Positions 40,997 through 41,509 of a stretch of 64,000 nucleotides of DNA are shown piece after piece. A program made the translations under genes and the position numbers. Every line of letters starts with the position of its first letter. Within the stretch, counting starts at the first letter, position 1. Location: positions 1 through 64,000 of the forward strand of contig NZ_FQZE01000023.1 in assembly GCF_900141875.1 (NCBI RefSeq). Reading direction: 5' to 3'. The notes beneath the pieces are model-generated. The model saw nothing but the letters and a program-made list of their open reading frames with translations. It was not told the DNA's origin and made no database searches. Origin of the DNA: Tangfeifania diversioriginum (GTDB lineage: Bacteria > Bacteroidota > Bacteroidia > Bacteroidales > Prolixibacteraceae).

Positions 40997-41006
40997 TGAT
41001 TTTCTG

Positions 41007-41071
41007 TGGGCCCACCTGGGCTTGAACCAGGGACCACCTGTTCCGATAGCTATCGGAAGAGTCAGGTGCTC
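41007..41071 (-). pseudogene. tRNA-CAT duplicate disrupted in the anticodon loop
   Basis: 41007-41040 is identical to the 3' half of the intact tRNA at 41436-41509. Where the anticodon loop should be lies an 18-bp perfect palindrome, TTCCGATAGCTATCGGAA (41041-41058). Then 13 bases (41059-41071) again match the tRNA anticodon stem and D-arm side, after which similarity stops. The 5' end is missing. The palindrome resembles short mobile palindromes common in Bacteroidota. Confidence 0.85.
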
Positions 41072-41358
41072 GTCTCGTAATTCAGCTTGCTTTGAAGTTC
41101 CGGGTATTGTTTTAGGTTTCTGATAAATATTTTACTCTTCATTGATTTTATTTTTCGCTCCATTCGGATTGCATGAGGATAGTCATTCGCTTCAATCGAG
41201 AGAAAAACTTCCCAATCATTAGCCATTGCAGTATACCGGTGTTTACCGTAACTATGATCATTGTGTTTTTCAAGCCGTTTTTCAACATTGTCATTTGTTG
41301 CGCCAACATAGAACTTGTTTAATTTTTCACTAAACAGGATATAGCATGAAGCGCTCAT
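41062..41358 (-). CDS. GIY-YIG nuclease-domain protein nested between tRNA copies
   Basis: 98 aa single-domain URI-type GIY-YIG protein: YILFSEKLNKFYVGATND (the GIY is YIL here, YIG is YVG), RLEKHND, then the conserved Arg/Glu in RMERKIKSMKSK. Small stand-alone members are widespread with unsettled function; some act as DNA endonucleases. Its last residues (TST) and stop codon are encoded within sequence copied from a tRNA. Flanked by 41-bp direct repeats. Confidence 0.88.
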   Translation of the reverse strand: MSASCYILFSEKLNKFYVGATNDNVEKRLEKHNDHSYGKHRYTAMANDWEVFLSIEANDYPHAIRMERKIKSMKSKIFIRNLKQYPELQSKLNYETST

Positions 41359-41384
41359 AGGTTAATAGTTGAAATTATAAAAGT

Positions 41385-41424
41385 CATAAAATAATAAAAG
41401 CATTTCCATATCTGAAAATGCTTT
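41385..41424 (-). terminator. terminator of tRNA-CAT
   Basis: AAAGCATTT (41397-41405) pairs with AAATGCTTT (41416-41424); on the minus strand it is followed by TATTATTTT. Confidence 0.75.
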
Positions 41425-41435
41425 GTTGTTTTCTG

Positions 41436-41509
41436 TGGGCCCACCTGGGCTTGAACCAGGGACCACCTGATTATGAGTCAGGTGCTCTAACCAACTGAGC
41501 TATAGGCCC
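41436..41509 (-). tRNA. tRNA with CAT anticodon (elongator Met, or Ile2)
   Basis: 74 nt with full cloverleaf: acceptor GGGCCTA/TGGGCCC, D stem GCTC/GAGC, anticodon stem CCTGA/TCAGG around CTCATAA, T arm CCTGG-TTCAAGC-CCAGG. Not the initiator (no GGG/CCC anticodon stem). Whether C34 is modified to lysidine (Ile) or left as Met cannot be told by eye. CCA is not encoded. Confidence 0.95.

Follow-up and report, generated by a model that had tools for sequence, protein, structure and literature searches.

RAYT proteins are tyrosine (Y1) transposases, and in REP/RAYT systems palindromic repeats go together with a single gene of nuclease type. In the mitochondria of Allomyces, the GIY-YIG gene ORF360 is located at the 3' end of atp6, with displacement of the resident 3' end. 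SLX1, a structure-specific nuclease of eukaryotes, acts with a partner protein and handles branched DNA. We know of no role for most small GIY-YIG proteins. SegB of phages T4 and T6 is a free-standing GIY-YIG homing endonuclease (PMC13096335; PMC2988022). According to the sections consulted, it cleaves within tRNA genes, and the tandem amplification of the tRNA together with the gene depends on it (PMC13096335).

The locus described here belongs to the window, i.e., the whole stretch of 64,000 nucleotides of Tangfeifania diversioriginum that was analysed, and associates a tRNA-Met gene, a small GIY-YIG gene and a partial tRNA-Met copy interrupted by a palindrome. As with SegB, a GIY-YIG gene is found among tRNA genes, many isotypes of which are co-located in the phages, as far as the consulted sections go (PMC13096335; PMC2988022). 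SegB is a phage gene, in contrast, and no palindrome-bearing partial tRNA copy is described for it in those sections (PMC13096335; PMC2988022). The element reported here resides in bacterial chromosomes, encodes tRNA-linked proteins of about 80–110 aa, falls into lineages mostly tied to one tRNA type, and is likened to SegB by the GIY-YIG fold only. It differs from REP/RAYT by a GIY-YIG protein in place of a tyrosine transposase and by the use of tRNA genes as host sites. The likeness in our sample is that a palindromic repeat is tied to the nuclease lineage (by a weak correlation, and with motifs picked post hoc) and that other small GIY-YIG genes are nested in interspersed repeats. ORF360 shares the position at the 3' end of the target with a displaced resident 3' end, but its target is protein-coding and organellar, and its displaced copy is not known to carry a palindrome. 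Among solved structures, SLX1 and UPF0213 (single-domain GIY-YIG) are closest to the nuclease domain in sequence and in fold, with the difference that SLX1 is eukaryotic and has its partner. No description of a GIY-YIG–tRNA–palindrome element in bacterial chromosomes was found among the listed titles and abstract openings of open PubMed Central papers, and we are apparently dealing with an undescribed, widespread and very small mobile element. SegB and REP/RAYT are the nearest known kinds, and there is a real chance that these free-standing nuclease elements form a class of their own.

On the minus strand, the features listed in Table 1 followed one another in the order tRNA-Met(CAT), terminator-like hairpin, GIY-YIG gene, partial tRNA-Met copy and second terminator-like hairpin. 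The direct repeats of 41 bp which the preliminary description had placed on both sides of the nuclease gene were exact. With the two copies 429 bp apart, a chance origin was rejected. A second exact direct repeat of 13 bp was present at 41059-41071 and 41475-41487. The partial copy had been said to lack the 5' half of the tRNA, and it indeed started at tRNA nucleotide 23. The last codons of the protein and its stop had been ascribed to tRNA sequence, and the stop with the two codons ahead of it (AGC ACC TGA) was located within the partial copy. This copy was identical to the intact gene except for the replacement of ATAAT by TTCCGATAGCTATCGGAA, ATAAT covering the last two positions of the anticodon, two others in the loop and the one with which the 3' stem begins. 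The perfect 18-bp palindrome reported at the anticodon loop was thus recovered, whereas the loop, described as replaced, was partly retained (CTC). The partial copy is disrupted and the intact tRNA-Met keeps its loops. Each of the two copies had its own terminator-like hairpin on the 3' side, a feature absent from the preliminary description.

Table 1. Features of the tRNA-Met locus, with positions given in the window.
Feature	Position	Strand	Basis
Intact tRNA-Met (anticodon CAT), kept copy	41435..41509	-	ARAGORN; Rfam RF00005, 72.8 bits
41-bp direct repeat, intact-tRNA copy (35 bp of tRNA and 6 bp of 3' flank)	41429..41469	-	Exact repeat
Terminator-like hairpin following the intact tRNA, within the inserted segment	41397..41424	-	Inverted repeat; putative terminator
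GIY-YIG gene, 98 aa (MSASCYILF...NYETST)	41062..41358	-	ORF; PF01541, E=2.9e-11
Partial tRNA-Met copy with the palindrome inside it (from nucleotide 23 to the 3' end)	41006..41071	-	Repeat comparison
Perfect 18-bp palindrome TTCCGATAGCTATCGGAA replacing ATAAT, anticodon loop	41041..41058		Sequence
41-bp direct repeat, partial-tRNA copy	41000..41040	-	Exact repeat
Second terminator-like hairpin, following the partial copy and interpreted as the terminator of the resident tRNA	40960..40998	-	Sequence

Allowing at most one mismatch, TTCCGATAGCTATCGGAA was present at two places in the 4.78-Mb genome and is not an abundant repeat there. The 14-bp core of the palindrome was found, exactly, at five places. 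None of the four places other than the window had a tRNA in the fetched stretch, and one was situated in a terminator-like hairpin, as judged by eye. An Rfam scan of 40900-42100 at gathering scores returned only the tRNA and a SAM riboswitch and no ribozyme, and a group I intron with a homing endonuclease was rejected on this basis. The SAM riboswitch (RF00162, 63.3 bits), at 41731-41843 on the plus strand, adjoins the tRNA and is located upstream of the gene at 42064. No integrase was found between the tRNA copies, where the only ORFs of at least 60 aa were the nuclease and the end of a frame of the opposite strand (40800-41123).

The site was empty in a member of another genus of the same family (G005), which possessed neither the nuclease nor the second tRNA copy. 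Its tRNA-Met was 94.7% identical to that of the window, the same gene was present downstream, and the tRNA was directly followed by a terminator-like hairpin, similar by eye to that at 40960..40998. In genus g7, the tRNA-Asn locus carried seven units in G026 (L078), one in G006 (L075), one in G050 (L101) and none in G038, the empty locus of the latter being aligned on the upstream side over 1256 bp at 92.5%. Occupied and empty alleles of one site therefore exist (G005; genus g7), as is the case for homing elements. The empty site of G005 and the unit counts of 0, 1, 1 and 7 in genus g7 indicate that the element is present or absent and multiplies in tandem. Tandem units measured approximately 300–450 bp. 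The seven units of the tRNA-Asn array L078 (G026:C1:3369757-3375550) were mostly 435 bp long, and an array at a tRNA-Asp gene (L163, in G377) was made of five units of 315 bp.

A scan of Met and other tRNA genes for adjoining GIY-YIG genes had been suggested at the outset, and such genes were found in many genomes, together with an intact tRNA, a partial copy and a tRNA-derived C-terminus. The hypothesis of a one-off arrangement was rejected owing to this recurrence in the family and phylum searches. In the PF01541 search of 60 genomes of the family, 58 of which had a match (UvrC-like genes counted), 49 of 111 GIY-YIG rows were within 1 kb of a tRNA gene, 48 of them on the strand of the tRNA; these rows are, among the matches listed, the small-ORF rows to about E 5e-14, and they include the UvrC-like L017, a domain within a 1205-aa frame (L010) and two double entries (L045, contained in L078, and L041, contained in L102). 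The expectation for the same strand, computed from 44 tRNAs in 4.78 Mb, was about 1%. None of the 20 UvrC-like controls from the same genomes, chosen by frame length (about 600 aa) and not by a family search, was within 1 kb of a tRNA.

At the level of the phylum, a profile of 20 tRNA-type members retrieved relatives from 198 of the 296 genomes searched. Of the 164 ORF rows in 110 top-scoring loci, 150 were located no more than 1 kb from a tRNA gene, all 150 on the same strand; since the rows were top matches of a tRNA-type profile, this is not the rate for all small GIY-YIG genes. The tRNA was upstream in 114 of the near rows and downstream in 36. When four twice-fetched loci and the window's genome were left out, the count became 138 of 152. 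In this set alone, 24 anticodons served as targets. Named genomes provided 58 loci: a tRNA on the same strand was found within 1 kb in 25 of the 35 from Bacteroidota, Chlorobiota and Ignavibacteria (with three more on the opposite strand) and in 18 of the 23 from other groups. Twelve of these 23 loci had a partial copy that withstood the shuffle test; they include MAGs labelled KSB1, Peregrinibacteria, Omnitrophota, Desulfobacteraceae, Poribacteria, Nitrospirae and Patescibacteria, and mis-binning of single MAG contigs is possible. A Prolixibacteraceae MAG locus (L239) was 100% identical to the query from family genome G037, and the family is thus probably Prolixibacteraceae. Relatives carrying this gene with no repeats and at a distance from tRNAs had been named as the observation that would count against the preliminary description, and the clade of the window did not show this pattern. 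There, 23 of the 29 nearest relatives fetched were near a tRNA, all 23 on its strand, and 21 had a partial copy. Five of the six relatives with no tRNA were on stretches ending at a contig edge.

A tRNA-derived copy, scored against shuffled sequence, was present on the side opposite to the intact tRNA in 163 of 176 testable genes and was not found for the other 13; the set is without hits under about 50 codons and without two contig-edge genes, and seven loci were dropped as duplicates from the copy and palindrome counts, including one real gene, the first Ser unit of the window's genome (L012). Two forms were observed. In the first, the gene is located 3' of the tRNA and a 3' copy lies beyond the gene. 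In the second (Arg, Pro and several Ser), the gene is located 5' of the tRNA, a 5' copy lies ahead of the gene, and the C-terminus of the protein extends into the intact tRNA (MVP-stop in the four Arg members of the family). A palindrome satisfying a strict rule existed within the tRNA body in 99 of the 163 copies. The corresponding counts were 46 of 815 after shuffling of the copies and 20 of 163 for the intact tRNAs, knowing that at L036, L265 and L337 the tRNA called intact was itself a palindrome-bearing copy. Many of the 64 copies failing the strict rule showed near-palindromes by eye. In the ten Val(TAC)-type copies, the 7-bp stem was fully paired with compensatory changes at three of the seven pairs. 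Covariation was 0.292 compared to 0.146 after shuffling (0 of 500 shuffles as high), for stretches trimmed to the limits of the palindrome, a choice that biases towards pairing but not towards compensatory changes, and with the later L333 and L334 absent. At L036 (in G031), full-length tRNA-Val-like copies had a palindromic anticodon arm and were called tRNA-Stop(TTA) by ARAGORN, the tRNA-like form being kept.

The lineage of the nuclease followed its target. Across the tree, which comprised 108 small nucleases, 31 changes of target were needed compared to a shuffled mean of 85.7 (0 of 200 as low), a low count to which near-copies and vertical inheritance contribute; L017, L010 and L045 were left out of this tree, one-sided and two-sided repeat labels were merged, and L055 was assigned to tMet(cat) by eye. 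The window and 9 of the 21 copies of its clade had the core GATAGCTATC. The arm in which it occurred varied, and the tRNAs concerned were those for Met, Asn, Leu(TAA), Leu(CAA) and Phe. The 12 other copies did not contain it in its exact form. At the same tRNA-Met, the position of the palindrome varied between arms within this clade. Among tRNAs of different amino acids, palindrome similarity was correlated with nuclease similarity (r=0.136; 0 of 1000 permutations as high) over 90 loci, with genome relatedness left in, 18 of the 21 window-clade copies used, and 50 of 140 loci left out as having no palindrome under the rule. By the shared core and this small correlation, palindrome type follows in part the clade of the nuclease and not that of the target tRNA. 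Neither this link nor the repeat-nested genes and nuclease-free tRNA copies described below had been anticipated in the preliminary description. In one genome, three tRNA loci with a nuclease displayed three palindrome types.

The protein of the window matched PF01541 with 44 bits for a cut-off of 22.6, which places it in the GIY-YIG superfamily. The columns Y, Y, G, R, H, E and K were invariant in alignments of 20 and 25 members, and the conserved Tyr, Tyr, Arg and Glu are presumably those of the GIY-YIG active site. By sequence, the nuclease domain was closest to UPF0213 and SLX1. By predicted fold (mean pLDDT 79), it was closest to UPF0213 (E 2.4e-3), SLX1 and then, more weakly, I-TevI, with no match at E 0.001 or better. 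The search of plasmids with the Asp-type nuclease gave 19 records, each with less than 60% identity.

Of the 40 nuclease-free tRNAs in the genome of the window, 12 had a partial copy within 600 bp, and ten of these copies had inserts of 8–44 nt inside the tRNA (L360, L362, L364, L367, L368, L374, L376, L378, L380 and L390). Three of the ten inserts were strictly palindromic, six formed only short hairpins (arms of 4–5 bp) and one had no hairpin. The gap to the tRNA was 25–81 nt in nine cases, with no ORF of 50 aa. At L380, the gap reached 286 nt and contained three frames of 53–61 aa, and none of the PF01541 matches listed in the genome-wide search was located there. The palindrome of L376 was that of a nuclease-bearing locus of another genome (L093). 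These nuclease-free copies indicate that no nuclease is needed in cis and that the inserts could have an origin independent of it. They may be solo derivatives, or the process may run without the nuclease. Two other nuclease-bearing loci of this genome had insert types of their own: a tRNA-Asp(GTC) with a tandem series of several partial copies (L009, G000:C54) and a tRNA-Ser(GGA) with two tandem nuclease units (L011/L012, G000:C43).

Away from tRNAs, full flanks were available for 50 other small GIY-YIG genes, and 27 of these had one interspersed repeat motif on both sides, compared to 0 of 105 pairs of control windows, the motifs having been chosen after inspection of the flanks. Such repeat-nested genes include L008, L013, L015 and others, with the motifs GTCATTGCGA, GTCATTTCGA, ATTCCCGC, ACCCTGTCAAATAA and other types. 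The repeat GTCATTGCGAGG had a mean of 6.8 copies where the matching nuclease clade was present (10 genomes, two of them devoid of the repeat) compared to 1.1 in the 50 genomes without this clade. Copies within 3 kb of the gene amounted to 7/7 in G026, 9/10 in G038, 15/16 in G013, 5/7 in G047 and 4/7 in G031, whereas no clustering near the gene was seen in G041 (2/8) and G057 (2/10). In another case (L014, G000:C23:97534-100746), a GIY-YIG gene appeared, by eye, to adjoin the 3' end of a putative protein gene, with an apparent displaced second 3' end beyond it.

It is very likely that we are observing a real, recurrent mobile element. We propose that this element is composed of a small GIY-YIG gene and of a partial copy of the target tRNA which carries a palindrome. 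The locus of the window is probably the product of a single insertion of such a minimal element, approximately 430 bp in size, which would invade tRNA genes by cutting and leave the tRNA intact. In this model, insertion at the 3' end of the tRNA-Met would let the complete tRNA stay, and the resident 3' part would be displaced beyond the gene. The nuclease would break the DNA in or beside tRNA-like sequence, and recombination through tRNA homology would then copy the element into tRNA genes without it (homing) or multiply it in tandem. Break-driven recombination of this kind is favoured by the precedent of SegB, for which tRNA cutting and tandem amplification are reported in the sections consulted (PMC13096335). 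We lean slightly towards spread by a nuclease break followed by homologous recombination. The palindrome would most likely be the nuclease's own handling site, as a hairpin or cruciform, and would also disable the partial tRNA. Such a site, able to form a hairpin or a cruciform, is plausible because SLX1 handles branched DNA. That the nuclease recognises the palindrome is a more tentative proposal, which we make with some reserve. As a counterpoint, the intact tRNA of a carrier should itself be a target unless it is protected. The model is also weakened by the nuclease-free copies, by the 64 copies failing the strict palindrome rule, by the 13 genes with no copy, by the 12 copies of the window's clade lacking the exact core, and by the absence of one cut site common to all copies. 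The nuclease-free copies would be non-autonomous derivatives.

This pattern could also be produced by a plain free-standing homing endonuclease which cuts a tRNA loop, the insert in the partial copy providing immunity and its palindromicity being incidental. SegB does cut inside tRNA genes, and the motif RAWTSGAAC is given, in the sections consulted, for 23 of 83 mapped sites (PMC13096335). On the opposite strand, this motif reads GTTCSAWTY, which we take as the T loop. Among the 114 3'-type copies covering the T-loop motif, 23 had it split by an insert of at least 8 nt, in 19 cases directly after GTTC, some of these being tandem copies of one locus. However, the motif was intact in 43 copies and otherwise changed in 48, so that no single cut site fits all copies. 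The location of the palindrome in different arms of the same tRNA-Met in the window's clade also speaks against this explanation. In addition, compensatory changes keep the Val(TAC) inserts palindromic and a core is common to several tRNAs, and immunity needs neither. We consider this explanation unlikely.

In another scenario, which appears quite unlikely, the palindromes are independent mobile or mutational inserts favouring hairpin loops, they strike the partial copies because these are not under selection, and the nuclease is a mere passenger at tRNA sites. The inserts in 10 of the 12 nuclease-free partial copies, three of them strictly palindromic, would be in line with it, and so would the 14-bp core at four other places of the genome with no tRNA in the fetched stretch. 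But independent inserts agree poorly with the three palindrome types at three nuclease-linked tRNA loci in one genome and with the correlation between palindrome type and nuclease similarity, and a passenger fails to explain why 150 of 150 near nucleases are on the strand of the tRNA, with a far-side copy in 163 of 176. Integration at tRNA sites usually leaves a displaced 3' end of the tRNA behind, and the loci might be seen as the remains of integrative elements (phage, ICE) at tRNA attachment sites, in which only the nuclease was kept. This origin is very improbable given that tandem units of about 300–450 bp leave no room for an integrase and that elements of the 5' type duplicate the 5' part of the tRNA. 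Furthermore, tblastn of the 98-aa protein of the window against 50,697 phage records at E 1e-3 gave no match, the search being insensitive with so short and divergent a query, and of 104 candidate stretches obtained from IMG/VR with the Asp-type profile A4, none was confirmed as containing a relative.

The model of a minimal element made of a nuclease gene and a palindrome-bearing partial tRNA copy gives many small GIY-YIG proteins a genomic context and a testable activity. It raises the testable question of whether one enzyme of 98 residues and a palindrome are enough for movement, and nucleases of this kind could serve as small tools aimed at tRNA genes. If true, it would explain the broken tRNA copies found beside tRNA genes and some palindromic repeats. 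As a broader possibility, which we advance only with caution, small SLX1-like GIY-YIG nucleases, each lineage with its cognate palindrome, might be minimal mobile elements found across bacteria, invading tRNAs and interspersed repeats via hairpins in nuclease-bearing and solo forms, as a counterpart of REP/RAYT. If this were the case, part of the small palindromic repeats of Bacteroidota would descend from such elements.
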